NCBI RefSeq assembly: GCF_932294415.1
Contig: NC_065545.1
Coordinates: 42,260,327 to 42,324,326, forward strand
DNA from: Quercus robur
Taxonomy: Eukaryota > Streptophyta > Magnoliopsida > Fagales > Fagaceae
Reading direction: 5' to 3'
DNA length: 64,000 nt
Positions 4,746 to 50,930 of this stretch are shown one piece after another. A model generated the notes under the pieces. The model saw only the letters and a list, made by a program, of their open reading frames with translations, did no database searches and was not told the origin of the DNA. The stretch's first letter is position 1. Every line of letters begins with the position of its first letter. A program made the position numbers and the translations under genes.

Positions 4746-4977
4746 AAGGCCATGACCATTGTTGATAAGTAACTAGCTCATAATTTTATTTATTTTGGGA
4801 CCTTCAGTAGATGACGAGAATGTGTATTAGGTCACTTTTATCAAACATTGTAATCAAGCACCGATTCTAGTAATCAAACCTTATAAATTTCTAGACCTAA
4901 GATCTTCAAAGAATAATCAATGTAATATACAAGACCACTTAAAATTAAGAGTGCAACCATCAGGTCATAAACCTGAA

Positions 4978-13679: not shown

Positions 13680-13831
13680 GTTGTACGCAAGAAAAAAGTC
13701 GTTTTTTCTCTCCTCTCAGTAGGAGCTTTCTCTCTCGTCTAACAAGCTTTACCTCCCTTAGATTTTTTCTGAGGGTTTGCTTTCTTTTTTGAAGAGTTTT
13801 ACTGGGGATCAATCACTTTCAAAAAGGACGG

Positions 13832-14933
13832 ATGGTAGACGACGTGATAAACGGTTTGGAAAACATGAAATTAACTACAGAAGAGGAAGAAGTGATAGAG
13901 ATTTCAGATGAGGGAATAAAGGACGAGATAGAGAGTTGCACCCAGAGCTTGATAGGAAAATTTCTAACGTGCAAATCCGTTAACAAAAGGGCGGCTATCT
14001 CCATGCTGAAGAAGGCCTGGGGACTTGAGGATCGAGTTCAGTTCGTGGAGGTGGGTTCAAATCTTCTCCAATTCAAATTCCAAGAAAAGTTTGATATGGA
14101 GAGGATACTCAGAAGTGGGCCTTGGACTTTTGATAACCAGGCACTCTTGCTAACTAGATGGAGGAAGGGTATGACGGTGAGGAATGTGAAGTTTGACTCG
14201 ATCTCTATGTGGGTCCAAATATGGGATGCCCCGTTTGATATGACATCTCCCATGGTGGCTAAAGCGGTGGGGAGTAAAATAGGTATAGTGGAAGAGGTTG
14301 AGAAGAAGTTGAAACATGAAGCCTAGAAGTTGTTCATGAAAGTGAGAGTATCTATTCCACTCTCTAAATCGATTCGACAGGGTGGTTTTATTGCAGGTTC
14401 GGATGGAGTGAGGTCTTGGGTAAACTTTAAGTACAAACGAATGCCATTGTTTTGCCATTATTGTGGCTTACTAGGGCACGACACCAAGCACTGCGCAAGC
14501 TTCTACGCTGCGTCGAAGAACGTGGGAGAGGTAGAGTGTCCGTATGGTGAATGGCTGAAGGTCGGGGGACTACGTACAGGTTCTCTAGTAAAACAGGGGT
14601 CGTCGAGCTCTGTTCTGAGTAACAAAAACAGGGGTCCGATAAACTTTCAAGATTGTACCGGTGAGGCGTCACAGTTTTCGGCGGCGCAAGGGATAGTTCC
14701 AGTTTGGGCCGGCAAAGCCCACGGCCAAATGGACCAGAATTCCTCGGATGGACTGTGGGCTAGAAAAGGGAGACGAGGTTAAATCCTTTCCAATTTTGGG
14801 GAAGAGAGGATCGGCCCAGTTGGTGGGAGAGGAAGATGTAGAAAAGAACGTGAAACAGGGGGTGAAACGAGGGAAACTCCAAGATGATAATTTATCAATC
14901 TCAACGGCAGGGGTGCTTGATCACCCTTGCTGA
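13832..14933 (+). pseudogene. L1 ORF1: DUF4283 RNA-binding protein with CCHC knuckle
   Basis: From the start at 13832 the frame covers a DUF4283 domain (about residues 30-150, with SLIGKFLTCKSVNKRAAISM and ILRSGPWTFDNQALLL). An in-frame TAG follows at 14324-14326, where a tryptophan codon is expected. The same frame resumes at 14330 and contains a CX2CX4HX4C zinc knuckle, CHYCGLLGHDTKHC, around 14451-14492. A frameshift near 14700-14780 moves the tail to the frame that ends STAGVLDHPC at 14933, the typical terminus of plant L1 ORF1. ORF1 proteins bind LINE RNA in a ribonucleoprotein particle. Stop and ORF2 start are only five bases apart. Confidence 0.88.
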
Positions 14934-14938
14934 TCACA

Positions 14939-17900
14939 ATGAAGCTGCTGAGCTGGAACTGCCAAGTGCTTGGGAACCCTTGGACAGTTCGAAGCCTTCA
15001 CAAAATAGTGAAGGATCAAGCTCCCAATATTTGTTTCCTCATGGAAACAAGGCTGGACAAGAAAGGTTATAAGAAACACTGTAAGGACCTGCCTTTTCCC
15101 AATCAACTCATAGTGAAAAACCCGAACTCTGGAGGCGGTTTAGTTCTGATCTGGAAGCATGGTGTGGACGTGGATGTTATTAACTTTACACAAAACCATA
15201 TTTTAGCAAGGGTGAGGGAGGAGGACGGTTTTGTGTGGTACATGACTGGATTTTATGGTTGGCCAGAGACTTCGCAGAAATCCAAGTCGTGGGCATTACT
15301 CCATCACTTGATGTCTTTCATGGAGGGTCCTTGGATGTGCATAGGGGATTTTAACGCCATTTTGCATTCTCATGAGAAACAGAGTGCTCGGGCACCTCCA
15401 TACAGCCAAATGGATGAGTTCAAGGCAGCCTTGGAACAGTGCCACCTAACTGATTTAGGGATTGTTAGGTATCCTTTCACTTGGAACAACAAACGTCCAG
15501 GTTTGGCCAACACCAGGCAGTGCTTAGATCGTGCAGTAGCAACAAAGAGTTGGAAAATGAAATTTTCAGCAAGTGTTGTTAATCATCTTCTTTCACATGC
15601 TTTTGACCATGCACCAATACTTTTGCAAATCAGAACCCCTAGAAGCAGATGTGCAAGGGATCCAAGACCTTTCAAGTTTGAAGAGTCGTGGTTACTGTGG
15701 GAGGAATGTGAAGCAATGGTTCATGAGGCTTGGACGAAACCGGTTAGAATGTGCTCGGGTTTGAACTGGATAAAGGAGAGAATCTCAATTTGTGGTATGG
15801 ACTTGCATGCGTGGGGCTCCACTAGAACCCACCTTGATACAAAGAGAATCAAAGCACTCCAAAAACGGGTGGAAGACCTCAACAAGGGAGAGACAACAAA
15901 TGACAGTAAGGCTGAATTCTTAGCAATCAGTAAGGAGCTAGATGATCTGTTAATGAAGCAAGAGATTTACTGGGCACAACGATCAAGGATTTCATGGCTA
16001 AAGCATGGGGATAAGAACATGAAATTTTTTCACTCTAAGGCATCAAATAGAAGAAGGAGAAATTTGATTCAAGGGATAAGAACACAAGACAATAGGTGGG
16101 TGGAGGACATATCAGATATTGGTCAGGTAGCCACCAGTTATTTTGAGAGGATGTTTACAGCAGGTACATGTGACCGGGTGGAGGAGTGTTTGAATGCCGT
16201 TCAACAAAAAGTCACTGATGATATGAAGGAGATTCTGACCAGGGAATACAGTGTGGATGAGATCAAAGCAGCGTTGTTCCAAATGGGACCAACAAAGGCT
16301 CTTGGACCCGACGGTATGGATGCACTTTTTTACCAAAAAATTTGGAATATTGTTGGTGATGAGGTTGTTGTAGCGGTATTATATTTTCTAAATTTTGGAA
16401 ATATGGACCCTGATGTGAATTATACCCATATTATTCTTATCCCAAAAATTAAATCCCTAGAAAAAATGTTTGATTATAGACCTATCAGCCTTGTAATGTC
16501 ATCTATAAAATTATTTCTAAAGTCTTAGCCAACAGACTAAAACAAATACTTTCCCAGATAATCTCTCCTACTCAGAGTGCTTTTGTTCCCAGCCGCCTTA
16601 TAATTGATAATATATTGGTTGCTTATGAATGTTTACATGCCATGCATTGTCGTAAAAAAGGCAAAAAAGGCTCTCTTGCACTGAAACTGGACATTAGTAA
16701 AGCTTATGATAGGGTTGAGTGGGCTTTTCTCAAAGGCATTATGGAGAAGATGGGGTTTCCTAAGATTTGGATTGATCGGGTCATGTCTTGTGTTACCACT
16801 CCTTCTTTTTCTATATGCATTAATGGTAAACCTTTTGGTAATATCTCACCATCTAGGAGGATCCGATAAGAAGACCCATTATCTCCTTATTTGTTTCTCC
16901 TATGTGCAGAGGGTTTTACTTCACTTCTAGCCAAAACTGAGACGGAGGGGCAGATTCATGGGATGTCCATTTGCAGAAGTGCTCCTTGTATTTCTAATCT
17001 TCTATTTGCAGATGATTCTCTAGTATTTTGCCAGGCAAACCAAGGAGAGGTGCAGGTGTTGATGGAGATCTTGGACTTGTATGCTTCGGCTTCAGGGCAA
17101 TGCATAAATTTGGAAAAGTTTTCCATTTATTTTAGCAGCAATACTGAAGCAAGGCATAGGGAAGAGATTAAGACCATTTTAGGGGTACAGGAAGTCGCAA
17201 GATTTGAATCTTATTTGGGGTTACCAACCTTGATTGGTAGATCTAAATACCAAACTTTCTCCTTTCTCAAGGATAGAATTTGGAAAAAGCTTCAGGGTTG
17301 GAAGGGTAAACTGTTGTTGAGGGCGGGAAGGAGGTACTTATAAAAGCTGTAGCTCAATCTATTCCCACATACACTATGGGGGTTTTTCTTTTACCTTTAA
17401 AGCTCTGTAATGAATTCAATGCCATGTGTGCTCGATCTGGTGGGGTCAGGTGGGTAATGAAAGGAAGATCCATTGGAAGAGTTGGGATTCGATGTCTAAG
17501 CCAAAGAGGGAAGGAAGCATGGGATTTAGGGACATTCGGTGCTTTAACTTGGCAATGCTTGCCAAGCAAGGTTGGAGGCTGATCCAGGATACAAGTTCAT
17601 TGGTATATGCTTGCTTCAACGCTAGGTACTTTCCAAGGTGCAGTTTCTTGGAGGCAAAGGATGCCCCCAACAGCTCGTATGTTTGGAAAAGCATTCTAGC
17701 TGCTCAAGAAATCCTAAAACGTGGATGTTGTTGGAGGGTGGGAACTGGAGCTGATATTAGAGTTATGACAGATAAGTGGATACTGAATCACCCTGCTAAC
17801 ATGGTGATTTACCAACCACAGGAGGTAAAATGGGAATAGAGGGTGGTGGAACTTATTGACTGGAATGTTGGTGCTTGGGATAGAAACTTGATAGAGACGA

Positions 17901-19043
17901 AATTCCATAAAGAAGATGCTGATGCAATCCTTAGAATCCCACTTAGTAGAAGATTCGTGGCTGACTCTATCTTTTGGCTCCTCAACAGAGATGGGGACTA
18001 TTCTGTAAGTCAGGTTATAGGGTAGCATGCAAAGTCAGGAAGGAAGCGAGCATGCAGGGGGAAAGCTCAATGGTAGGAGATAGTGAGTTGGTGTGGAAAA
18101 AGATATGGCAGATGCACATTCCAAATAAAATAAAAGTTTTCGTGTGGCGGGCTTGTCATGGTATTCTACCTACCCGTAACAACTTGCTCCGAAAACATGT
18201 AGTTGAAGATAGTACCTGTGTACTCTGTAAACGAACCAGTGAAACAGAGCTGCATGTGTTGTGGGAATGTGGCGTGGCTCAGGACATATGGGCTGGGAGC
18301 ATGAGGAAGTTATAGAAAGGAAAGGGTGGCCAACTCGATTTTTTGCACTTGGTGGAGGAATTAATGGTGAAGCTGTCTTGGGAGGAGTTGGAGTTGTTCT
18401 TCGTACAAGCTTGGCTCATATGGACACAGCGCAATACAGTGACGTTTGATGGAGTGATTTAGGACCCTTCTCGGTTGGTGAAGAGAGCTGGTGAATTCTT
18501 GGAGGAGTTTAAACTGTCCCAAGTCCAGTTGGTTGTGTCGACAGTTGGTGCGAGAAGCTTAAGGTGGAATCCCTCGCCGGGCCTGAGTTACAAACTCAAA
18601 TTTGATGCAGCCATCTTTCAGGACGGTGAGGCGTCGGGTTTCGGGGTGGTGATCCGGAATAATGGTGGAGAGGTTATGGCGACTCTATCTGCAAGAGGAC
18701 CAGCTGTTTTTGACAGCAAGGAAGTGAAGGTGCTGGCTTGCAGGAAGGCGCTGGAGTTTGCTGCCGACTCGGGCTTCGCTGATTTGGTACTTGAAGGAGA
18801 CAACTATGTAGTTATGGACGCCATTTCAAGCTCACGCATGTTTCAGTGCTGGGTCATTTGTACTCAGACATCCACTGCCTGGCTACGGGATTACATGTCC
18901 GTTCGCTGTCCTATGTTGCTCGTTCAACTAATTCTGTTGCCCACTCTCTAGCTTGTTTTGCACATTGTATCAATGATGACATTATTTGGTTAGAGGAATC
19001 CCCTCAACGGGCCTTGGAAGCTCTGTACTTTGATGCACATTAA
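14939..19043 (+). pseudogene. L1 ORF2: endonuclease, reverse transcriptase, zf-RVT, RNase H
   Basis: The start at 14939 opens MKLLSWNCQVLGNP, the N-terminus of the apurinic-like endonuclease. METRL, CIGDFNAI and FDHAPI mark its active-site blocks. RT follows: LGPDGMDALFYQ, DYRPISL, LDISKAYDRVEW and FADDSLVFC (about 17005-17030). Then come zf-RVT with VFVWRACHGILPTRNNL and CVLCKRTSETELHVLWEC (about 18140-18270), and RNase H with KLKFDAAIFQDGEASGFGVV and LVLEGDN (about 18590-18800), ending at 19043. Disablements include a frameshift near 16497, TAA at 16867-16869 in the QGDPLSP block (probably CAA mutated), frameshifts near 17330 and 17430, and further stops at 17837-17839, 18025 and 18315, with another shift near 18850. 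Confidence 0.9.
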
Positions 19044-29134: not shown

Positions 29135-29485
29135 TGAAAGAGATCTGTGATTCTTAGAGAGAATGTTCTAGAAGAAGAAGTAATGAAAAACTGAATTTTC
29201 TATTATTCAATAGATTACATGAGATACAACATATATAGGCTCACCAATCATAACAGATTTTAGAGCCAAAACTATTCTAACAATATCGTGTAAAGATTAA
29301 CAGAATACATACATGTGGACAATATGTAACTAACCTATACTCAAAGTTCTCATACTAAACTACATACAAGTTTACAATATCATGGGTAAACTACAAGCCG
29401 TTTATGCAATGTATGCAGTTGTGCTTCTCTATGAACTAAAGCTCTGTTGGCAGATTCACTTGAGGCAGCACCATCATTGTTTACA
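29135..29485 (-). repeat. 3' LTR of the copia element
   Basis: On the minus strand it begins TGTAAA and ends TTTCA, so it has the TG...CA termini of LTRs. It matches the LTR at 33854-34205 over its whole length with scattered substitutions. The TGGTT target duplication lies immediately outside. Confidence 0.95.
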
Positions 29486-32400
29486 TCCTCCCTCAAACGA
29501 AGGGGGGGATTCCCCATGAGTTTGAAAGACAGAGCATGAAAACAAGGGGAAGGCAAGCCCTTAGTGAATATATCAGCTAATTGATCCAAGGTAGAAATAT
29601 ACTTGAGAACCATATCTCTATTCAACACCTTCTCTCGAACAAAGTGGTAATCCACTTCAATATGCTTAGTTATGGCATGAAAAATAGGATTAGAGGCCAA
29701 AGCAAGAACTAAAACATTACCACACCATAAAATAGGAGGGTGATACAAATAAACCCCTAAGTCCTTGAGAAGCATTCTCAACCAATACAATTTAGCAGTG
29801 GTAAGAGCAAGGGACCTGTACTCAGCCTTAGTGGAAGATCTAGACATAATAGACTGCTTCTTAGCAGACTAGGTGATAGAAGAATTCCCTAAGAAAACAA
29901 TCATGCCAGCGATGGACCTCCTATCAATAGGATCCCAGCTCAATCAGCATCACAATAAGCTGAAAGGGTGAGAGAACTAGGCCTAAAATAGATCCCTTTG
30001 TGCAGTGTACCCCTTAAGTATCTTAAGATCCTCTTAGTAGCAACAAGAAGAAGCTGAGAAGGCTTACTCATGAACTGACGTGCTTGCTGGACAGCATAAG
30101 ACAAATCTGGCCTAGTGAAGGTCAAGTACTGCAAAGCACCAACAAGACTTCTATAGGTAGTTGGATCAGAGAAAAGAGGACCGACAGCAAGAGCATGAGA
30201 ATAAGCAGAAGCACACGGATTAGAACAAGACTTATAATCCATCATATGAAACTTAGACAATAAATCCTTGGCATACTTGGTTTGATGCACAAAAATGCCA
30301 TCACCAGAATACTTAATTTACAGACCCAAGAAATAGTGCAAAGGACCTAAATCCTTGAGAGCAAAGGAGACTCCAAGCTAAGTAATTATCTTAGTAACAA
30401 GAGCATTATTATTGCCAATAATGATAATGTCATCCACATACAAGAGTAAGTAAACAACATGTTGTGAATGAATAAGAATAAACAAATTGTTGTTTGCACA
30501 AGAAGCAAGAAATCCCAGATGGAAGAGTTGATTGGTAAAGCTGTTAAACTAGGCCCTAGGGGCCTGTTTCAGACCATAAATGGCTTTGTGCAAGAGACAT
30601 ACATGATGAGGCTTAGAGATATCCTTATACCCAGGTGGCTGACTCATGTAAACCTCCTCTTACAACACTCCATGAAGAAAGGCATTAGAAACATCTAATT
30701 GCCTTAGGGACCAACCAAACTGAACAACCAAAGTAAGAATAATCCTCACAATTGTAGGTTTAACCACTAGACTAAAAGTCTCAGCATAATCCAGACCATG
30801 TTGCTGCAAGTAGCCCTTGGCAACAAGTTTAGCTTTAAGCCTAGCAATGCTACCATCACTATTCCTCTTAACTTTGTACACCCACTAACAGGCTACAACA
30901 TTCTTATCAGGTGGCAAAGGAACTAAGGACCAAATATGCTGCTAACTAGTAAACTCAGAATCCATAGTTTCAACCTAATGAGGATACTTAGATGCAATAG
31001 AATAGGAAGGGGGCTTAGTGCAACTGTAATAAGCCTAAACAGCAAACACTTTAGGCTTGAAAATACCATTCTTGGACCTGGTAAGCATAGGATGTGCATT
31101 TGTATTCACAGGAACATGAGTAGGAACAAAAGCAGAGAGACTAAGAGCATTAGTAGAAACAGGTAAGATAGACTCAATAGAAACAACAGAGGAAGAAGCA
31201 GGTAAGACAGATAAAGCAGAATCAAAACAATAATTCTCAGATGGAATAGAAGAAGGACTCTCAGAACAATGATTAGAATCAGATAAAGCAGAATCAGCAG
31301 AAGGAATAGAATTGAAATGAGGAAAACTCAAAGAAGAAATTGGAAGTAAAGAGGAAAACCACACATCATAGGAAGATGAAGAAGCAGGAAGAGAGGAAGA
31401 TGACCCATCATTAAAAACAAGGAAACTAAGAAAAACAGACTCATAAAAAACACAATGACATGAAATGTAAATTTTGCCATTAAGAACATCTAAGCAAATA
31501 TAACCTTTGTACTGAGGAGGGTAACCAAGAAATATGCATTGCTTAGACTTGGGATCAAATTTACGAGAAGCATAGGGTTTCAACAAAGGATAACAAGCAC
31601 AACCAAAGGTTCTCAAAGCATGAAGTGGAGGTTTGTGACCATACAATTTCTCCCAAGGTGAGACAAAACGTAAAACAGAAGGTGGAAGTCTATTAAGAAG
31701 GTAAACAGCAGCACTAAAGGCATAAGACCAATAAGAAAAGGAGAGATTGGAGTGGTGAAGCATGGATAAAGCACTCTCCATAATCTGCATGTGCTTCCTC
31801 TTAGCAACACCATTCTGTTGAGGGGAATAAGGATAGGAAAATTGATGAAGAATACCATGTTCTAAGCAAAAAGACTTAAAATTGGCATTAACAAATTCGC
31901 CACCACCATCTAACCTCAATGTTTTGATTTTAGCATTAAATTGAGTCTTAATCAATGAATTGAAATGCAAGAAAACCTGAAACACATCAGACTTCCTTTT
32001 CAACAAAAATAGCCAAGTAAAACAAGTAAAGTCATCAACAAAGATCACATAAAACCTATGATCAAGAACAGAAGTCACAGGAACAGGACCCCATACATCA
32101 AAATGCACTAATTGAAATGGATATTCAGTATTTGATACATGATTAGGAAAAGGAGTCTTGTGCATTTTAGCACTTATACAAGAAGTACATTTAGAACAAA
32201 TGTCACTAACACAGGACAACTTGACTGAAGGATAAGAAGACATAACTGAATGTAAGACCTTAGCACAAGGATGACCAAGCCTATTGTGACAAAGTAAAGT
32301 CTGTGGAGACATTGTAGCAAAGCCATTGGAGTTGAGATGAGAAGAAGAGGAGGAAGGCAAAGTAGAAGAGGGTATAGGATAAACTCCATCCTTACTTAAC

Positions 32401-32720
32401 CCTTTGTAAAGAACCTTCCCCGTAGGTAAATCCTGAATTAAGAACAGATATGCATCAAAATAACAAAAGGCATTATTCTGAAGGCATAATTTATGAACAG
32501 ACAGCAAGTTTGAAGCAATTTGAGGAACTCTAAGAATATTGTTCAAACATAAATTATAAGATGAAGTAATGAGCTTACCATTGCCTATATGTGTCACTGG
32601 TAAATCTTGCCCATTACCAACTGTTACAGACTCACTAGTTGCAGGTTATTGAGAAAGAGAAAGCCGAGACAAATCTAGTGTGATGTGATTAGAGGCACCG
32701 ATGTCTGTCAACTAATTTTG
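29380..32720 (-). pseudogene. copia pol: protease, integrase, reverse transcriptase, RNase H
   Basis: Read downward from about 32720, the protease site has DIGAS where copia elements have DTGAS. GAG-pre-integrase follows (LLCHNRLGHP), then the integrase core (VHFDVWGPV, LRLDGGGEF and QQNGVAKRKH, where the expected catalytic E of VAERKH is K). The RT has [29 protein letters not shown] and the catalytic YVDD at 30429-30440. RNase H is at 29380-29850 (SRSSTKAEYRSLA). The 520-codon protease-integrase frame at 31035-32597 is open. About ten premature stops sit elsewhere, for example at 31035, 30549-30551 and near 29940, nearly all at positions where Q or W is conserved. Confidence 0.92.
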
Positions 32721-32858
32721 ATTCTGATTAGCATCTGAAGTTGCAGCCATTGATCTTGCAACCATGGAAGCAAGCTTAGTTGGAGCATGCCTACCTTGTT
32801 AAGCAAAGTTCATACAATGATAACAATCCAAAGTAGAATGGCCATTCTTGCCACAAAT

Positions 32859-33854
32859 CTAACAAGCAACCTTCTGTCCTTGAGAAGAAGAAGAAGAAGA
32901 CTTATTCTGTGGAAAGAATTGAGGATCCAGCACTAGATTATTGGTATTATGAAACTGACCACTACCAGAGACCTGATTATTATGAAACTGACCACCACCA
33001 GAGAACTGATTACCACCTCTGCCATTGCCACAACCTTTATTATTTCCATTCTTGCCTCTTCCTTTTGTAAAGCCTTGATTGAATTGATTGGCTGCCATAG
33101 CAAATGATTTAGAATCTCTAAGATCAGAATGAGTGGACCTCTTCTTGATTGACCTTTCTTCAGCATTCAAGAGTGTATTCAACTCTTCAAGAGTAAGAAT
33201 GTCATTCCTAGTTCTGATCGCAGAACAGAATGCATCATACTCTGGAGGTAGGGCTTCAAGAGCTAAATGGATTAGCTCTTCCTCATCAACATAGACTGAT
33301 ATAGCCCCAAGTTTATCCCTAACCTCTTTGATTCTTTGAAAGAAAGAATCCATTGATTTTAAACCCTTCTTCATACTCATTAGCTCATCCCTCAAATTGA
33401 GCACATGAGATTGTGACACTAATGCAAACCTTTTCTCAAGCACCTTCCAGACTCCTCGTCCAGACCTCTAACCCACAGTAAGAGCAAAGATTGATGGAGA
33501 GAGAGTTGAATTAAGAAAGGTAAACAAGGCTTGCTCGCGACTCTTCCATTGGAAATACTCTGGATTAGCCTCAGTTGTAAAATTCCCTGAGCTATCCTTG
33601 AGAAATGGATTTGGAGCATGATCATCATCACTAATGAAATTGATCATTGAATATGCTACCAAGATCACTTCGATCTGATGTCTCCACACCATATAATTGT
33701 TGTAATCAAGTTTCACAATAGCCATACTTGCCATATTTGACAAGAGTAGCAGTGAAGGATTGACACCATGAGTGATTGAAGAATTCGTGGTTGATCCTGT
33801 TGTTGCAGAGGATGAAGAACTTGTAGAGGACACCATTCTTGGCTCTGATACCAT
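32859..33854 (-). pseudogene. copia gag (UBN2/retrotran_gag type) with one internal stop
   Basis: The frame starts near 33854 with a serine-rich leader, then VKLDYNNYMVWRHQIEVILV, the usual gag N-terminal block. It meets a stop at 33468-33470 and continues in the same frame through RSGRGVWKVLEKRFALVSQS, the DELMSMKKGLKSMDSFFQRI segment and a glycine/asparagine-rich basic tail. The zinc knuckle of CX2CX4HX4C form follows at about 32820-32870, but its second position is itself a stop codon at 32859-32861 where glutamine is usual. Confidence 0.88.
33842..33853 (-). promoter_or_regulatory. Primer-binding site, initiator Met tRNA
   Basis: TGGTATCAGAGC on the minus strand directly adjoins the 5' LTR with no gap. 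It is complementary to the 3' end of initiator methionine tRNA, the standard primer of plant copia elements. Confidence 0.92.
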
Positions 33855-34205
33855 GAAAGAGATCTGCGATTCTTAGAGAGAATGTTCTAGAAGAAGAAGT
33901 AATGAAAAACTGAATCTTCTATTATTCAATAGATTACATGAGATACAACATATGTAGGCTCATCAATCATAACAGATTTTAGAGCCAAAACTATTCTAAC
34001 AATATCATGTAAAGACTAATAGAATACATACACGTGGACAATAGTGTAACTAACCTATACTCAAAGTTCTCATACTAAACTACATACAAGTTTACAATAT
34101 CATGGCTAAACTACAAGCCGTTTATGCAATGTATGCAGTTGTGTTTGTCTATGAACTAAAGCTCTATTGGCAGATTCACTTGAAGCAGCACCATTATCCT
34201 TTACA
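33854..34205 (-). repeat. 5' LTR of the copia element
   Basis: Pairs with the LTR at 29135-29485. TG...CA ends on the minus strand; TGGTT lies outside at 34206-34210. The promoter for the minus-strand transcript is expected here. Confidence 0.94.
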
Positions 34206-34989: not shown

Positions 34990-35932
34990 TATCACCTCAT
35001 ATTGTTGGAATAAAAATGGAAACTATTACTTGAACCTTCTTATTATTTGTACCAAATAAATTTATCAATTAGAGGTAGTCCTAATTCATTAAAATTTTAA
35101 AATCACTTAATGCACGCTATATTGAAATAAAATACCAATATATATATATATATATATAAGGTTTAAAATTTTGATAATAGATTTTTAGTTGGTGTAGGAT
35201 TTAAATTTCTGAAACTTAGATGCATGTTGTATATTTTGTTAAAACACTTATTATTACTTTATCTAAATAAATCGATAAGAATAAATAAGTTGTTAGGTAA
35301 ATAAATTGATATAGAAATAAATAAGTTGTTGTCCATATCAACTGAAATTTAAATGCATGCTGCATGTTTTATTAAAACACTTATTTTTACTTTGTCTAAA
35401 GAATTTGATAAAAACAAATGAATTGTTGTCTCTATCAACTGAAATTTAAATACATGTTCTATTAAAATATTTATTGTTATCTTATCTAAAAAAATGGATA
35501 AAAACTAATAAATGAAACCTTTTGACGCAGCTACAATTTTTTTTTAAAAAAATTGCAATTTGGTGAATCAACTTGACACAATTATTGGCAACCACAATTT
35601 TTAAGCCCAATTACTTTTATTTTATTATATAATATATGTGATATGATACGATTCTACTTCATACTTCAAATCAATTTGTGTATAAATTTAAGGATGTAAT
35701 CAAGTTGTGAAAGAATAAAATAATGCAAATAATTGTAGCTTTCTGTTCATTTCAACAATAGCGTGCTTTAACATGGCTTGTCCGGTTGTCCACGAGTCAT
35801 ACTTATCGGCTTTGATTTAAAAAAAAAAAAAAATTATTATCAAGCTCGAGATCAAAGATAAAAGATATTTCATCTTTTATCAATGAAGTTTCCCTTTGGT
35901 ATAAAAAAAAAACCTCGAGATCTCTTCCAAAA
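34990..35932. other. Intergenic, upstream of the BAHD gene
   Basis: AT-rich DNA with internally repeated blocks: three related copies of a segment containing ACTGAAATTTAAAT and TATTAAAACACTTATT-like words occur between about 35200 and 35500, suggesting a decayed tandem duplication of roughly 110 bp. No gene is seen. Promoter elements for the gene at 35933 must lie here but none is distinctive. Confidence 0.5.
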
Positions 35933-37345
35933 ATGGCTCAACCCAACAGTGTAAAGGTCTTAGAGATATGCCAGATTGGTCCACCACCCAAATCAGTGCC
36001 TACCACCTATCTTCCGCTCACTTTCTTCGACATACCATGGCTTCTCTGCCGCCCCATGCAGCGCCTTTTCTTCTATGAACTCCCTTACCCTACCGACCAT
36101 TTCAAACAGACCATCCTTCCCATTCTCAAACACTCTCTCTCCCTCACTTTCCAACACTTCTTTCCCTTGGCTTCCAATCTTATATGCCCCCCACAACCCC
36201 TCAAACCCCATATCCTCTACACCGATGGAGACTCAGCCCTGTTGACCATCACCGAGTGTTTGGGCGATTTCGACCACATCGTAGCTAATTATCCACGAGA
36301 TGCCAGAGATTTACACCCCTTTGTGCCACAATTGAACCCAGCACGTGTGTTGCCTGATAACACACGTGTGGTCCCTCTCATGGCCTTGCAACTCACTGTT
36401 TATCCAAATTCAGGCATTTGTATTGGTCTCACGTTTTGCCACGTGGCAGCTGATGGAAGAGCATTCCACCATTTCATGAAATCATGGGCGTCCATTTGCA
36501 GGAAGATAATTATGGGAGACTTGGATTGCACTGACAGCAACAGCACGTTACTCCCATTTCACAATAGGGAGGTAATCAAAGACCCGAATGGACTTGAGCC
36601 CAATTTCTTAGAGGAGTGGTGGAATTGGGCTTCAACATGGAAAGAGGATACACGTCTCATCAATGACGTTCTTGCTGATAAAGTCCGGGCCACATTTGTT
36701 TTGGGTCAAGCCCATATTAAGAGACTAAAGCACATGATCACAAGTCAATGCATGGAGAAGGAGTTAGAGCCATTGCACATATCAACATTTGTGGTAACAT
36801 GTGCTCTCATTTGGGTGTATTTGATCAAATCTCAAGACAGTCCGGTAAGTAAATTTTCGGATATTGATAATGATGAGCTCTACTACTTTAATTTTGTAGC
36901 AGATTGTCGTAACCGGCTTGAATTTCCAGTACCTTCCACATATTTTGGAAATTGCCTAGCAATATGTTTTGTATCGCTTAAGAGGTGCGAGCTAGTTGGA
37001 GAAAATGGGATTTTCTCTGCTGTGAAAGCTATTGGAAACAAAGTTCGGGAATTGGAGAGTGGAGCTTTGGAAGGGGCTGAGAAATGGTTGTTAGATTGGA
37101 AAGAAATATCGGAATTGGGTCATTTTGTCACAGTTGCAGGCTCACCAAGATTAGGTGTTTATGAGACAGATTTTGGGTGGGGGAGACCCAAAAAGAGTGA
37201 AGTGGTACAAATTGATGTTTCGGGGGCTATATCTCTTGCTGAATGTGGTGATGAGGATGGTGCGATTGAGGTTGGTTTGGCACTTAGTAGGGAAAATATG
37301 GATAATTTCAATGCCATCTTTCAACATAACTTGAATCTATTATGA
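35933..37345 (+). CDS. BAHD acyltransferase, phenolic/flavonoid glucoside malonyltransferase-like
   Basis: Intronless 470-residue protein, the normal length for the family. The catalytic HXXXD motif is HVAAD at residues 170-174 and the structural DFGWG motif is intact at 413-417. YFGNC at 337-341 marks the anthocyanin/phenolic glycoside acyltransferase clade. The N-terminal MAQPNSVKVLEICQIGPPP and the LPLTFFDIPWL segment also fit that clade. These cytosolic enzymes move an acyl group, often malonyl, from CoA to a sugar hydroxyl of a glucoside; His170 is the general base. Substrate cannot be fixed from sequence. No stops or frameshifts, so it is probably functional. The next elements on either side are transposons, with no sister copy in the window. 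Confidence 0.95.
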   Translation: MAQPNSVKVLEICQIGPPPKSVPTTYLPLTFFDIPWLLCRPMQRLFFYELPYPTDHFKQTILPILKHSLSLTFQHFFPLASNLICPPQPLKPHILYTDGDSALLTITECLGDFDHIVANYPRDARDLHPFVPQLNPARVLPDNTRVVPLMALQLTVYPNSGICIGLTFCHVAADGRAFHHFMKSWASICRKIIMGDLDCTDSNSTLLPFHNREVIKDPNGLEPNFLEEWWNWASTWKEDTRLINDVLADKVRATFVLGQAHIKRLKHMITSQCMEKELEPLHISTFVVTCALIWVYLIKSQDSPVSKFSDIDNDELYYFNFVADCRNRLEFPVPSTYFGNCLAICFVSLKRCELVGENGIFSAVKAIGNKVRELESGALEGAEKWLLDWKEISELGHFVTVAGSPRLGVYETDFGWGRPKKSEVVQIDVSGAISLAECGDEDGAIEVGLALSRENMDNFNAIFQHNLNLL

Positions 37346-42453: not shown

Positions 42454-43195
42454 TGTTGGGAAAAATTCTATATTACTGTGAATAAATTTTAGCAAGCACA
42501 GTGGAAGCACAACCACACAAAAACACAAAGATTTACGTGGAAACCCTTTTTCCTTGAAGGGAAAAATCACGGGACAAACTCCGAATAATTTCACTATATT
42601 AAATAGAGATTACAACATGTAGAGATACAACTTGAGTAAAAAAAAAACTCTCTTTTTCTTTTCACTCACTGCTCTCTTTCTCACTGTGTATTTTCTCTTA
42701 CTCTCTCTATTTTTCTTTTCTCTTTTGCTTGCTCTCACTCACGCAGCTCTTCAAGACTGCACTAGTCCTCACACTTTGGGACTTCACTTCTTTTGTTTTT
42801 TTCTCTGCACTAGCCGAATCCTCTCTATTTATTTCTTCATCTTTTCCTTCTTTTCTTCCTTTCACACTCTCCACATCAAGTCACAATAAGTGCAAGCCAC
42901 TTACTTTGACTTTGCTTCAACCAAAATCCCTTTCTTTAGCTCTCATTGGCCGAATGGCCTTGCTTGTTTTTTTCCTTTTTTCCTTTCAGCTCTGCCATAG
43001 CAGAATAACTCTTGCTTTTGCTTCTTTCTTTTCTTTCCTCCTTCAGCATTTTGGACACGCCTAAGCCAACCAACCCAATTACTAATGCTGACTTTTGTAC
43101 ATGATGAAGAAAAGATAAGAAACATTAAAGACAAGCTCATTAAATTAGCATGTCTATTACAAGTGGGCTGAACTCATGGTGCAATGCACCCAACA
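42454..43195 (-). repeat. 3' LTR of the gag-protease copia element
   Basis: Begins TGTTGGGTGCA and ends CCCAACA on the minus strand; pairs with 44861-45600. Contains long CT-rich stretches. Confidence 0.95.
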
Positions 43196-43240
43196 ATCTC
43201 CCCCTTCAGCTCACTAAGGGAGCAGATTCAACTCAATTCT

Positions 43241-44836
43241 TCAATTAGAATTTATTCCGGTCAAGCCAGCACCAAGCTCGACCTTTTTCATTATCTTCAC
43301 CAACACTGAAAAAATATCATCAAAATTAATACCTTTCATTTTCAAATAATTTATTTCATCTTGGATATCCTTAATCCAATTTCTTGGCTCCCCCTGCTCA
43401 AGAACTTCACGATCTTTCATTTCATCATTCTTCCTTGCATCATGATATTTTTCATCAAATATCACTTTTAAATCACTTTCAGGTTGAGAGAATTTTACTC
43501 TCTTGGCTGCAACACCATTACTATCAACTCTCAACTGTTGAGTTTTCTCAAAATCTTTGGCTGCATTGGACTTTTTCTTACAAGCCCTCACATGAGTCCT
43601 GTACATACCGCAACAAGCACATCCTCTTGCAATAACCAATAATCCTTTAGAAAGTTTCCATCTTCCATTGCCAAGATGGTTACTATAACCCGCTCGATCC
43701 AAAGCCAAAGTAGACAACACATTCATCCTTAAATCTGGAACATGCCGCACATCCTTCAATATCAACGTGCAACCAACATTTGTCTTGATGCATACATCAC
43801 CAATTCCCACAATTTTTGAATAACTGGAGTTACCCATTTTCACAACACCAAAGTCGCCTGCTTTGTATGTGGTGAACAACCTTTTTGTGGGGATAACATG
43901 GTGGGAAGCTGCTGAATCAACAACCCACTCAACATCATTCTTAGCAACATGCTTACATTTTTGCTCTTCAAGAGAGAGCATCAAAACATCCTCATGAAAC
44001 ACAACTGCTGCAGTATTCTTCTCATCATCATTCTTTTCATCTTTCTCTTCAGTTTGTTCTTTATTCCAATGCCAGCAGTTTCTTTTTATGTGACCCTTTT
44101 TCCCACAATGGAAACATTCTCTCATCTCTTTAAACTGAGATCTACCTTTTGACTGTGACCTGTCATTAGATTTGGCCCGATCATCAAGCCCTCTGCTTCT
44201 ATTTCTGCCCCTGTTCTCCATGACAAGAGCTTGATCTTGTGCATTGTTTAAACCAGCATCTCTTCTGCGAACCTCCTCACTTAGAATCAAATCTCAAATA
44301 TCATCATATTTGAGTTTGCTTTTTCCTGCAAAATTGCTCACTACCATTCTCATGGCCTCCCAACTGTTTGGCAAAGAAGCCAAAACAATTAATGCACAGA
44401 TCTCATCGTCAAAATCAATCTCCACAGAGGACAATTGATTTGTGATGGTGTTAAACTCATTCAGATGCTGAGCCACAGGAGTACCATCCACCATCTTCAG
44501 ATTAAATAACTTCTTCATCAGATGCACCTTATTGTTAGCTGAAGGCTTTTCATACATACTAGACAAGGCCTTCATCAGATCCACTGTAGTCTTTTCCTTC
44601 ATAACGTTGTGTGCAACTGATCTTGTTAGATTTAATCGTATAACTCTTAGCATCTGTCTATCAAGAAGACTCCATTCTTCTTCTTCCATACTATCTAGTT
44701 TCCTTCCCGAAAGAGGAAGATGTAATTTCTTCCCATACAAATAATCTTCGATTTGCATCTTCCAATAGCCAAAGTCTGTGCCGTCAAACTTCTCGATTCC
44801 TGACGTCTTTCCTTCTTCTCCGGCCATTGCTCCCAA
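43241..44836 (-). pseudogene. gag-protease polyprotein with a single nonsense codon
   Basis: One frame of 531 sense positions runs from 44836 to 43241, broken only by TGA at 44294-44296, where the YDDI-DLILSEEVRRR context shows a CGA arginine has probably become TGA. N-terminal gag (UBN2-like) reads IEKFDGTDFGYWKMQIEDYL and LMKKLFNLKM. A zinc knuckle of CX2CX4HX4C form, CFHCGKKGHIKRNC, lies at about 44078-44119. A retropepsin-like segment follows, WVVDSAASHHVIPTKRLF, with DSA where DSG is usual. After a short GAG-pre-integrase-like piece, the frame jumps to a lysine/glutamate-rich tail ending VELGAGLTGINSN. The deletion therefore removed all of integrase, RT and RNase H while keeping the frame. 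Confidence 0.9.
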
Positions 44837-44846
44837 TCGAACCTAC

Positions 44847-44858
44847 GCTCTAATACCA
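44847..44858 (-). promoter_or_regulatory. Primer-binding site of the gag-protease element
   Basis: TGGTATTAGAGC on the minus strand, two bases from the 5' LTR. It differs at one position from the usual initiator methionine tRNA complement TGGTATCAGAGC. Confidence 0.85.
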
Positions 44859-44860
44859 CT

Positions 44861-45600
44861 TGTTGGGAAAAATTCTATATTACTGTGAATAAATTTTAAC
44901 AAGCACAGTGGAAGCACAACCACACAAAAACACAAAAATTTACGTGGAAACCCTTTCTCCTTGAAGGGAAAAACCACGGGACAAACTCTGAATAATTTCA
45001 CTATATTAAATAGAGATTACAACATGTAGAGATACAACTTGAGTAAAAAAAATCTCTCTTTTTCTTTTCACTCACTGCTCTCTTTCTCACTGTGTATTTT
45101 CTCTTACTCTCTCTATTTTTCTTTTCTCTTTTGCTTGCTCTCACTCACGTAGCTCTTCAAGACTGCACTAGTCCTCACACTTTGGGACTTCACTTTTTTT
45201 TTTTTTTCTCTCTGCACTAGCCGAATCCTCTCTATTTATTTCTTCATCTTTTCCTTCTTTTCTTCCTTTCACACTCTCCACGTCAAGTCACAATAAGTGC
45301 AAGCCACTTACTTTGACTTTGCTTCAACCAAAATCTCTTTCTTTAGCTCTCATTGGCCGAATGGCCTTGCTTGTTTTTTTCCTTTTTCCTTTCAGCTCTG
45401 CCATAGCAGAATAACTCTTGCTTTTGCTTCTTTCTTTTCTTTCCTCCTTCAGCATGTTGGACGCGCCTAAGCCAACCAACCCAATTACTAATGCTGACTT
45501 TTGTACATGATGAAGAAAAGATAAGAAACATTAAAGACAAGCTCATTAAATGAGCATGTCTATTACAAGTGGGCTGAATCATGGTGCAATGCACCCAACA
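44861..45600 (-). repeat. 5' LTR of the gag-protease copia element
   Basis: Pairs with 42454-43195; TGAAC lies outside. As the LTR nearest the receptor kinase gene, its regulatory sequences are the ones most likely to influence that promoter. Confidence 0.95.
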
Positions 45601-45877: not shown

Positions 45878-48349
45878 ATGGAGAGCTTTTCGTTCTACAC
45901 TCTCTCAATAGTCCTGTTTCTTTGTATGTTTTATCAATCATCACATTGCCAACAAACTTACCCTAAAGATTTAGACATCAGCTGCACGGGAAATCCTTCT
46001 TTATCAAGAGGGTACTTTTGCAATGGCACTCTACAGTCATGCAAATCCTATGTAACCTACAGGTCCCAACCATATTATAACACTTTTGACAGAATCGCCT
46101 CTTTGCTTGGCTCTGAAGCCTCCACCATAGCTTCAATAAACAAACTCTCAAATATTGCTGACGAAATTCCCTCCGATAAGTTGATTATAGCTCCAATTTC
46201 TTGCTCATGTACTGCTGCTGTGTACCAGCACTTTGCTCCTTACCGTCCCGTGTCAGGAGATACATTTCTTCAAATAGTCAATAGGACTTATCAAGGCCTT
46301 TCCGCTTGCCAGGCAATGATGGGCCTGAACTACTACGATGCAAATAATATTCCGGACGACGTGGAGCTGATGGTTCCAGTGAGATGTGCATGTCCAAGTG
46401 AGACTCAGACTTCGAATGGGGTCATCTCTTTGCTGGCTTATATGGTGACAACGGGTGATTCAGTTTCATCAATCGCAGAGCTTTTTGGGGTGAATGTGCA
46501 GAGCATATTACAGGCAAACATGTTGTCACAGGATAGCCGTATCTATCCATTTACACCCATTCTGGTTCCTCTAGAAAGCAAAACTTGCGCTACAGATCCG
46601 GCTAGTTTCTTTTGTGACTGTCCTAATGGCTATGCTGCAGATCGTGTCAGCTGCAAGCCTGATCCTAAAAAGTTTCCGGTCAAATGGATTGCTCTGTTAG
46701 GTATCTCTCTCTCAAATGGATTGCTCTGTCTCTATTTCTCTCATTAAAACAAAAAAACAAAAATCTTAAAGAAACGAACACGTTTGGTTGAAGTAATTAA
46801 GTAGTCACATCTCATATCAAATAGTAGTAACTAATAATGATTGATTAATCTGACAATGATGGCACTCTAGGATAGGCAATATCCTTATATCTACCATCTA
46901 GTATAAAAACCTGCCAGAAAGAAATTAAAATTGAGTTCTCTATGTGTCTGTGCATGTACACCGAATCTACTAACTTCGTACACATGGGAATCAAGACTTT
47001 AAATCCCAAGGTTGTCTTGGAGATTGGATTTTAATAAAATATTAGAGACCCTCCCCAAGGCTATCTGCATATTCTCCCCGGACAACCAAAATCACAACAA
47101 TTACTAGTTAAATTTTATAGACTTTTCATATTTTGATTGATTTTGTTTCTTTACTTCAGGTATTGGGATTGGCATGGGATTCTTGTGCCTGTTTCTCTTG
47201 GGCTACAAGTTATATCAGTTCCTAAAGAAAAAAAAATATAGAATCCATAAGGAAAAACTGTTCAATCAAAACGGTGGCCTCTTGTTACAAGAAAAATTGT
47301 CATCTTATGGAGGTAGTGAGAAAGCAAAGATATTCACTGCAGAGGAACTGCAAAGAGCAACAGACAACTACAATGAAAGCAGATTTCTTGGTCAGGGAGG
47401 CTTTGGAACAGTTTATAAAGGAATGTTACCTGATGGCAACATAGTTGCAGTTAAAAAGTCGAAAGCAATCAATGAAAGTCACATTGAGCAATTCATTAAT
47501 GAAGTTGTCATTCTTTCCCAAATCAATCATAGAAACATTGTCAAATTAATAGGTTGTTGTTTGGAGACCGAGTATCCACTACTTGTTTATGAATTTATTC
47601 CTAATGGAACCCTTTCCCAACATATCCATCAACGAGACCTTGAATTATCACTTTCATGGGAGCACCTCATTAGAATTGCATGTGAAGTTGCTGGAGCAGT
47701 AGCATATATGCATTGTGCAACTTCAATCCCCATCCTTCATAGAGACATCAAATCATCCAACATTCTCTTGGATGATAAGTATGCTGCCAAAGTGTCTGAC
47801 TTTGGCACATCAAAGGTGGTCCCAGATGATAAAACTCACTTTACTACAGAAGTAAAAGGAACCTTTGGCTACTTGGACCCAGAGTACTTCCAATCAAGTC
47901 AATTCAATGAGAAGAGTGATGTATATAGCTTTGGAGTTGTGCTTGTAGAGCTCCTCACTGGAGAAAAGCCAATTTCTTTTGAGAGAGATGAAGAAGAGAG
48001 AAATCTGGTTGCACACTTCATTGCATTGACAAAGGAGAATAGACTGCATCAGATTTTACAACCTCAAGTCGCTAGAGAAGCAAGTAGAGAGGATATTGAT
48101 GCTATTGCATATCTGTCAGTGAAGTGTTTGAGATTAAATGGGAAAAAGCGGCCTACAATGAAAGAGGTTTCGATGGAGTTGGAAGCTTTGAGAAAATCTC
48201 AAAAATGCATAGAGATTTTCCAAGAGCCTCATTTATTGAGAGATAAAGAGTCATTCATGGACATCACAAGGGAAAGCCAAGACTCTGTGGAGGAAACGAT
48301 CATCTCTTCCCTGGAAATGAAGTCTGCATCAATCTTAACATCAGCTTGA
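45878..48349 (+). CDS. LysM-ectodomain receptor kinase with WAK-type kinase domain
   Basis: Two exons, 45878-46700 and 47160-48349, with a phase-1 GT-AG intron (46701-47159), give 670 residues. A signal peptide (residues 1-24) precedes an LYK4/LYK5/NFR5-like ectodomain: three LysM regions (about 58-105, 122-166, 186-231) separated by CSC (109-111) and CAC (170-172). LysM domains of this type bind chitin or lipo-chitin oligosaccharides outside the cell. A cysteine-rich stretch (237-259) like half an EGF repeat follows. The transmembrane segment (about 270-290) spans the splice junction. The juxtamembrane FNQNGGLLLQ block and the kinase match wall-associated kinases, not LYKs. The kinase looks active: GQGGFG 352-357, K373, E389, HRD 468-470, DFG 488-490 and DPEY 514-517. 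No stops. An LTR element ends 272 bp upstream. Confidence 0.93.
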
Positions 48350-48712
48350 TAGAGGAAATTTTTTCTTTCTGTATTCTTAACATTTCCTATTTTGTTTACC
48401 ATAGAGGTAATTGATCACTTATCAAAGAGTTGTAGAAGCATTTCGATTTTTCAAGTAGATGTACTGGTAATTTTATTAGCTCCCAAGCGGCAACATAGTA
48501 CCATTGTCTTTAACTTGAATGATACCAATATTATAAATCCCTTTTTATCTTTGGAATCAACAATGTTGTTTTTTAGCTTCCAATTCAATGCAAACCCTGA
48601 ATCAATACCCAAAGTTGGGACATAACAATCACATCAGAATACAAAGAAATATAAATCATCCAGAATTTTTCCAAATTAGACTCATGTTTTGGTTAAATTA
48701 CCATTTTGCTTA
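48350..48712. other. 3' flank of the receptor kinase gene
   Basis: Contains the probable 3' untranslated region. A 77-codon open frame at 48392-48625 has no recognisable domain and is probably chance. Confidence 0.5.
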
Positions 48713-49905
48713 TTAATTTATGGAGAAATTACACTTTACCACCCTAAACTATGCTCTAAATTATACTTTACACCTTAAACTATTCAATTGCACGGTTTCC
48801 ATCCTAAACTATGATCCTTGTTATACTTTACACCCTAAGGTTAGTTTTACTGTTAAGTTGGATGGAAATATGAAGCATGTGACTTGCATGTGTGTATTGC
48901 TTATGTGGTGCAAACTTATAAGACTAAAAACCCCTCTTTCAAATCAATTAAAAACAAACTTTTTTTTAATCTCTCTCTCGTGCGTATCATCCCCTCCCCT
49001 AATCAAAATCCCTACAACCCTAAATTCCCAAATCAAAATCATCTTCAACACCACCACTACTCCACCACCGCAACAAGTAGCTTGACAAGTTTGGTAAGAG
49101 GCATGATCTTTGTCTCCTAGACGATGTAAGAAATTTGGCTTCTTTACTGGCCATCTGTTGATTGATGTTGAAATTTCTGCAATATAGAATAGGTGTTGCA
49201 AAAATATATAGGTTGTTTCAAAGAACACTAATCCATACTTTGACCAAATAGTAAAATTTTATTGTCCAAAATTTTTAGGGCCCATTTGGTACATGTGTTT
49301 AAACAACAGATTTCAGTTTTTTTGGAAGTGTGGGTGAAAAAGTCTGTAGAAATACGTGTAATGTTGTTTAAAAATTGAAAACATGTGTTTAAACACATGT
49401 ACCAAATGAGACCTCAGTGCTTTGTCTTTTGTTCTATATTAATTATATACCATGCTTCATAGAACCTACCTCGTAGAATAGGTAAAAGGCCAATAACTTA
49501 GCTTTTGACTTTGACGATTTCTTTTAGGGATTTAGGGCTTCTTTTGAGTAGTGGTTTCATAGTGGTGGAGAAGTGGTGGTGTTGAAGATGATTTTGATTT
49601 AGGAATTTTTAATTTGGAGAGAGGAGCTAGTGCAAGAGAGAGAGGTGGATAAAAAAAACCATTGTTTTTAACTTATTAGAAAGAGGGGGTTTTGTGTTTT
49701 AAGTTTGTACTATTTAAGAAATACACACATGTAAGTCACATACTTCAAATTTCCATCCAACTTAATGGTAAAACTAACATCAGGGTGCAAAGTGTAACAA
49801 GAATCATAGTTTAGGGTACAAACTGTATATTCGAATAGTTTAAGGTGCAAAGTGTAATTTAGGGCATAGTTTATAGTGATAAAGTGTAATTTACCCTGAA
49901 TTTAT
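48713..49905. mobile_element. Mutator-like element (MULE) with long terminal inverted repeats
   Basis: The body is 48722-49896 (1175 bp). The first and last roughly 180 bases are inverted copies, with words such as AAATTACACTTTA, CCTAAACTATG and GTTAAGTTGGATGGAAAT in both arms. Weaker inversion extends further in (about 48990-49075 against 49500-49640, including CATCTTCAACACCACCAC). Flanking 9-mers TTAATTTAT (48713-48721) and TGAATTTAT (49897-49905) match at eight of nine, the duplication length of MULEs. There is no transposase, so the element is non-autonomous. A smaller inverted-repeat element lies inside at 49278-49414. Confidence 0.8.
49278..49414. mobile_element. Small MITE nested in the MULE
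   Basis: The left end GGGCCCATTTGGTACATGTG and the right end, read inward, GGTCTCATTTGGTACATGTG are inverted over roughly 27 bases around a centre of about 80 bases. The GGNCNCATTTGGTAC type of terminus is common in plant MITEs. No clear target duplication was seen. Confidence 0.65.
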
Positions 49906-50930
49906 TAGAAAATTTAATTTAGTTTTTAGGCAAACCTTAAATAAAGTACCTTGTGTACTGTGCATTAGGTTCCTCCCTAAAAATTAGACATGCGGATATT
50001 TAACGATTTTATTAAACGGGCGTTAAAGTCAAACAAAATTCAGCTAGTCCTCTTTTCTCTCAATTTAGTCCCTCTTTCTCTCTTTTCTTGGTAATTACGC
50101 ACCCATGTCTTTTTGAATAGAGTTTATGCACTTTTGGTGGGATTACTCTAATAGGAGAAGTGGTGGACTTGGAATTCGAATGGGAGGTGGAACTCCAAGG
50201 CTTTCGTTGATGGATCTGGGATTTATGTGGGTATGAAGGGCGAGGATGGGTTTAGGGACTTTGCTATGAAGAGACTCAAATTTGCTGAATTTACTAGTTG
50301 TGAGAATTTCAAAGGATATTGTGGACCTATACTACATGGTGTGAAGGGGATGGGAAAAAAAATCTGGTCATCGCTTTTTATTTTTGGGTTTTTTCTAATA
50401 TTGGTTGTTGAATAAGTTAATGTACAGAGAGAGATTGAGGCTAAATAAAATTTTTTGTTTTGGAACTTTTTTTCCATCAATTTCTAGTTTATTTTTTCCC
50501 CTAGTTTCCTCTTCTTCTTCCATTTTTTTTTTTAATAAAAATAATCTTGAGTGTGGATCTGGAAAATTCTACAAGAAGTATTTAATATAAATAAAAGGCA
50601 AAGACAGTGAATAATGGATTGAGTTTTTGTCAAGGCATGATACATCTGGGTTAGTGAATGTGATGCTACAGCCTTCATCCTCTCCTAATTTGGATCCGTC
50701 AATGAAAGCCTTGGAGTTCCACTAGAGAAAAGGGGGAATGAACAAGACAGAAAGCGTTGATTTTTCTAAGGGAAAGAAGAAGTTTTAATGCCTGTTTATT
50801 GATATTGTGAAATAGCCACATGGCAAATTTTTAAGGAGGGAACCTAACGCACTGTACTCAAGGTCCTATATTTAAGTTTTACCCTTAGTTTTTCACTTAT
50901 TAATTATGTCAATTCAATCGTTTACTTTTT
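49906..50930. other. No gene; inverted pair of RNase H-like coding scraps
   Basis: Two segments are inverted copies: about 50183-50222 on the plus strand (GTGGAACTCCAAGGCTTTCG) and about 50689-50727 on the minus strand (GTGGAACTCCAAGGCTTTCA). Both translate as WNSKAFVDGS or WNSKAFIDGS followed by G-rich sequence. This resembles the FxDGSxxG opening of a retroelement RNase H. The minus copy continues EDEGCSITFTNPDVSCLDKN. No intact domain or element boundary can be drawn. Confidence 0.45.

Follow-up and report, generated by a model that had tools for sequence, protein, structure and literature searches.

A probable LysM-III receptor kinase gene of Quercus robur with a LYK4/5-type LysM head and a WAK-type signalling half

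Does a LysM-type sensor head joined to a WAK-type kinase in the oak Quercus robur represent one genuine receptor gene, and if so, where were the two parts joined and what might the product do? The question was raised by a gene found at 45878..48349 of a window of 64,000 nucleotides, i.e., the whole stretch of DNA analysed here (C41:42260327-42324326). All genome searches were made against the window's own assembly, which comprises 785,749,727 bases in 42 contigs.

The gene is predicted to consist of two exons on the plus strand. Exon 1 (45878..46700), an open frame, encodes a signal peptide, three LysMs, an apparent EGF-like half module and the start of a membrane helix, and exon 2 (47160..48349), also an open frame, encodes the remainder of the helix (a hydrophobic stretch recognised by eye), the juxtamembrane part, the kinase and the stop codon. 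The intron in between (46701..47159, plus strand) was read from consensus splice sites, with TTAG/GTATCT as the donor and TTCAG/GTATTG as the acceptor; it interrupts a Gly codon in phase 1 (G/GT). Joined at these predicted sites, the two exons yield 2013 nt and 670 amino acids with a single terminal stop, and no other stop or frameshift was found across the 670 codons.

All three Pfam LysM models were matched well over their cut-offs, namely LysM1_NFP_LYK (PF23446; aa 54-112, 46037..46213, plus strand; 102.7 bits, cut-off 36), LysM2_CERK1_LYK3_4_5 (PF23472; aa 116-169, 46223..46384, plus strand; 58.3 bits, cut-off 27.4) and LysM3_LYK4_5 (PF23473; aa 185-232, 46430..46573, plus strand; 82.9 bits, cut-off 29.3), which bears out the proposal of a first-pass annotation that the ectodomain is of the LYK4/LYK5 type. 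The same annotation had noted CxC spacers; CSC and CAC indeed lie between the LysMs, but a third CxC (CDC, aa 246-248) belongs to the putative EGF-like half module. The closest solved structures to the ectodomain were those of LysM receptor kinase ectodomains (168.8 bits), an NFP chain scoring 60.2 and the best CERK1 chain 38.2. Exon 2 carries an RD protein kinase domain of the WAK type, as judged from its Pfam match, motifs and tree position (47369..48169, plus strand; PF00069, 180.9 bits, cut-off 31.7), in which the motifs GQGGFGTV (Gly loop), VAVK, HRDIKSSN, DFG and PEY are intact. Its closest solved structures were FERONIA (225.5 bits) and SymRK (217.9), with CERK1 at 175.9, LYK3 at 165.5 and an LYR-type kinase at 124.1; no WAK was present among the 60 chains listed.

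Searching the genome with exon 1 gave 28 matches in total, five of which, including the window gene, showed at least 59% identity. Of the four others, one is a paralogue on C38 (C38:18333, 95% identity) and two are paralogues on C4 (C4:73541663 and C4:73557745, both at 66%); the last, at C4:73550654, is a fragment matching at 59% over 137 residues. Both C4 paralogues carry an open exon 2, at 85% and 88% identity. In the C38 copy, exon 2 is represented by its first 139 residues, split over two frames and followed by a run of N, and this copy is incomplete in the assembly. Thus, besides the window gene, the genome has two copies with open frames, a third that is incomplete, and a fragment. The tandem pair at C4:73539000-73565000, with the exon 1 fragment lying in between, forms a small local array. 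The C38 region (C38:14000-23000) duplicates the start of the gene together with the flank upstream of it at 97% identity; it is interrupted by the run of N and located 18 kb from the contig end. The distance of the window from the end of C41 is 1.3 Mb. A subtelomeric duplication or an assembly effect possibly lies behind this arrangement.

These copies bear on whether the two exons might be neighbouring genes, or fragments, that are never spliced together. The splice does rest on consensus sites; nevertheless, we regard two separate genes as highly improbable, as (i) the GT-AG splice is in frame and needs no further exon, (ii) the exon pair is repeated in the two open-frame C4 paralogues and partly on C38, (iii) dS is similar in both exons, which suggests that they were duplicated together, and (iv) the two-exon plan is common to a published class of receptors described below. 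Since the two exons also follow each other as open frames in two copies on C4, another contig of chromosome size, the window gene is neither a chance arrangement nor an assembly accident. Judged from its sequence, it reads as a real chimera of a LysM sensor head and a WAK-type signalling half.

The kinase half resembles the WAKs of the same genome. When exon 2 was used as the query (105 of 3748 candidates were scored), the best 20 matches outside the LysM-III copies, i.e., outside the window gene and the paralogues above, were WAK-type and 56-62% identical over 342-379 residues. Several of these matches are preceded at a short distance, on their own strand, by a GUB_WAK_bind match, as in the case of C38:31823775 (GUB) and C38:31825123 (kinase). 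The three WAK genes that we read in the genome are composed of three exons, coding for GUB_WAK, EGF, and the helix plus kinase, respectively, and the GUB_WAK domain of one of them was confirmed on its own protein. In comparison with exon 2, five LYR-type kinases of this genome were 28-33% identical over 291-308 residues and a sixth 30% over 177. In a kinase tree of 23 hand-chosen rows, three LysM-III kinases grouped with seven WAK rows and one WAKL row with 98/98 support; three of the seven WAK rows had been read to their GUB_WAK and EGF exons, and the other four were labelled by kinase similarity. Several branches of this tree are long, and two of its joins are untrustworthy, namely that between WAKL_C35 and RLK_C2 and that at the base of the LYR rows. 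A tree constrained to place the LysM-III kinases with the LYR, CERK1 and LYK3 kinases was 18.4 log units worse and was rejected (AU test, p 0.0056). The complete motifs, the tree and the AU test agree with the earlier reading of a WAK-type kinase with intact catalytic residues, and clustering of the kinase with LYKs, which had been set beforehand as the result that would overturn that reading, was looked for in the tree; the kinase sided with the WAKs, and a clade with the LysM-receptor kinases was rejected. No relatives were found when viral contigs were searched with the kinase exon.

The combination of LysMs with a WAK kinase, whose novelty the first-pass annotation had left undecided, is already published as LysM-III, also named Group III or LYRIV. 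The main text of PMC6625017 describes Group III/LysM-III as having two exons, classically conserved kinase residues, LysMs near those of Group II and a kinase outside Groups I and II. According to the same text, 117 LysM-III candidates were found in 250 BLAST hits, none of them beyond the rosids, the fusion is dated earlier than the split of Eucalyptus from other rosids, and MtLYR5, MtLYR6, LjLYS20 and LjLYS21 are members. The group is named LYRIV in PMC6207691, where its kinases are described as closely related to WAKs; the founding papers, as cited through PMC6625017 and PMC6207691, are Arrighi 2006 and Lohmann 2010. The window gene shares with this class the LYR-type three-LysM head with CxC spacers, the two exons (from open frames and consensus splice sites) and the canonical residues of a WAK-related kinase lying outside the LYK and LYR kinases, and it is a probable member of the class, an assignment made by published description. 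It shares the LysM1-LysM2-LysM3 models and CxC spacers with LYRs of the LYK4/LYK5 type; unlike it, the LYRs of this genome carry a linker that is Pro-rich or short, and their kinase is degenerate and about 30% identical to that of the window gene. With WAKs, it has in common the kinase, the juxtamembrane part, the membrane helix, the last intron and apparently half of the EGF module, but LysMs stand in place of their GUB_WAK domain and complete EGF. In PMC7487666, 11 LysM genes of Rosaceae are listed as ‘WAKL’, mostly with two exons among the rows consulted, their best Arabidopsis hits being WAKL genes. PbrWAKL1 of pear, which is reported there to be upregulated after Botryosphaeria infection, and MdWAKL1 have two exons each and, at 646 aa, are slightly shorter than the window gene product (670 aa). 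This Rosaceae group, including PbrWAKL1, probably equals LysM-III. Neither of the two titles retrieved by oak-directed literature searches concerned the class, although a survey of titles says little. Passages of PMC9603095 likewise did not bear on it.

On the ectodomain side, the LysM-III rows formed a single clade (97/94) in a tree of 25 rows, from which identical rows and rows matching 120 query residues or fewer had been dropped. This tree does not single out the LYR donor of the LysM head, and its CERK1-like rows sit on a branch of 2.62.

Where, then, were the head and the kinase joined? The phase-1 intron that splits Gly as G/GT was found in all four LysM-III copies as well as at the donor sites read in three WAK genes (consensus sites in each case), and a fourth WAK gene has an acceptor matching the LysM-III intron. 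The intron of the window gene thus agrees in position and phase with the last WAK intron in this genome, in line with the earlier remark that the splice is in phase 1 and falls inside the membrane helix, a place where WAK genes tend to be interrupted too. From these features the first-pass annotation had derived an origin by exon shuffling, in which the phase-1 intron would have served to bring a LysM exon together with a kinase exon from a WAK. Beyond LysM3, however, exon 1 runs into what appears to be the C-terminal half of a WAK-type EGF module (putative; aa 236-260, 46583..46657, plus strand) before the intron is reached. WAK exon 2 in this genome ends in ...CTNLPGTYNCSCQLPGYDGDGKWDGTGCKLIPSPERFPLINRISLG and exon 1 of the C4 LysM-III copies in ...CTTNPGSFFCDCPNGYAADGVSCKTDPRKLPVKWIALLG, the window copy being similar. 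Pfam matches on the C4 exon 1 tails stayed below the cut-offs (EGF_3, E 0.0003-0.0004; EGF_CA, E about 0.01, at positions 15-43 of 43), as did an EGF-family trace on the window tail (E 0.012). No GUB_WAK match was found in exon 1, and the EGF profiles were matched weakly, at their ends. Scores against a profile of three WAK EGF exons ranged from 7.8 to 15.4 bits for the four LysM-III tails, compared with -0.6 to -5.3 for five LYR linkers, and shuffled tails equalled the real score in 4/2000 cases for the window copy, 1/2000 for C38 and 0/2000 for each of the two C4 copies. Taken by itself, the window copy gives a weak signal, and the EGF-half reading rests on Pfam profiles below threshold together with the alignment with three WAK genes. 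Searched against the genome, the 43-residue tail of exon 1 retrieved the four LysM-III copies only, apart from one match at E 1.65 that was not counted.

Most likely, then, sequence of WAK origin begins near 46583, still within exon 1, and the intron was inherited from a WAK, the sequence comparisons placing the join near 46574-46583, apparently within the EGF module. A join at the intron itself is disfavoured because exon 1 apparently holds the WAK EGF half and the intron matches that of the WAK parent; with nothing EGF-like in the five LYR linkers, we consider exon shuffling at the splice site improbable. In a possible variant, the first join took place at the upstream WAK intron, and that intron and the N-terminal half of the EGF module were lost later. 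The main texts of PMC6625017, PMC6207691 and PMC7487666, searched for the term EGF, do not contain it, nor do these texts mention a half EGF module or an intron inherited from WAKs; we do not present this detail as new. Together, the putative EGF half and the intron of WAK origin would confine the join to a few residues and hint that stalk, helix and kinase travelled together.

The two halves differ in their rates of evolution. Between the window gene and the C4 copies, dN/dS (omega) was 0.74-0.79 in exon 1 (dS 0.26-0.29) and 0.18-0.23 in exon 2 (dS 0.23-0.27), and a codon bootstrap of one pair, the window gene and the second C4 copy, gave 0.77 (0.52-1.09) and 0.17 (0.11-0.26), respectively. 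The kinase exon is under purifying selection. LysM2 was fastest in the window-C4 pairs (omega about 1.0; 0.98 in the bootstrapped pair, 0.52-1.90), LysM3 was fastest between the two C4 copies (1.35), and exon 1 reached 1.01 between the window and C38 copies. As controls, an LYR tandem pair on C6 gave 0.56 for the ectodomain and 0.35 for the kinase, and in WAK pairs on C38 exon 1 reached 0.46 and 1.20, with 0.22 for the kinase exon. Fast heads are thus usual in these families, and we do not argue for positive selection; the contrast is a lead for diversifying selection, not proof, and the fast head beside a constrained kinase offers a concrete selection test.

The same values may be read as a head without a glycan ligand, decaying or repurposed, with the kinase working in another complex. 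Omega near 1.0 in LysM2 and 1.01 in exon 1, as well as the incomplete C38 copy, would fit such decay. Nevertheless, the 670 codons are free of stops and frameshifts, the three LysM models score well over their cut-offs, fast ectodomains also occur in the WAK and LYR pairs of this genome, and the bootstrap interval for LysM2 is wide; we therefore judge a decaying head unlikely, if somewhat less so than shuffling at the splice site.

The best joint explanation, which we hold with good confidence, is that the window gene encodes a LysM-III receptor kinase with a LYK4/5 head on a WAK stalk, which would sense GlcNAc-containing glycans and signal through its own kinase. The sequence supports a three-LysM head of the LYK4/5 type standing where a WAK has its galacturonan-binding domain and the N-terminal part of its EGF module, with the stalk, membrane helix and kinase of the WAK retained along with its last intron. 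The LysMs may bind a GlcNAc-containing glycan (a chito-oligosaccharide or a relative), probably jointly with a LysM co-receptor, and the signal would be passed on by the receptor's own kinase, unlike in the pseudokinase LYK4/5 proteins. The receptor may have a role in defence against fungi, a role in symbiosis being equally possible. The earlier suggestion that such a fusion rewires perception to cell-wall signalling exceeds the evidence, since the substrates of the WAK kinase are unreadable from sequence and the missing part is the WAK head thought to contact the wall. It is attractive to speculate that LysM-III proteins in general are WAKs with a head swapped mid-EGF, in which the native stalk, helix and kinase of the WAK read out a LysM glycan sensor, and that in this genome the new head diversifies over a constant signalling half as in a pathogen-tracking receptor; we offer this tentatively, the balance being somewhat against it. 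A natural chimera with an active-looking kinase on a LYK4/5-type head would allow that head to be tested apart from its pseudokinase tail. To the architecture already catalogued, the oak locus adds a probable new member with paralogues, a join that apparently falls within the EGF module, an intron of WAK origin, and a kinase that evolves more slowly than the head.

A non-autonomous LTR retrotransposon (42454-45600, minus strand; gag-like frame 43241-44842) lies upstream of the gene, about 280 bases from its start codon; the LTRs of the element (42454-43195 and 44861-45600) are identical at 96-98% in blocks, and it is flanked by a 5-base target duplication, TGAAC. As the C38 copy has the empty site, the element was inserted after the gene duplication, and it may affect the promoter of the gene. 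Directly downstream, at 48711-49907, there is a long inverted repeat, possibly a MITE-like element, with 258-nt arms that are 78% complementary and 47-nt inner arms at 96%. Elsewhere in the window, a 509-codon open frame at 35816-37345 resembles a BAHD-type acyltransferase by eye, and open frames like those of LINE reverse transcriptases and copia-type retrotransposons were recognised, also by eye, at 4949-7296, 13793-18951 and 29380-33872 (minus strand).
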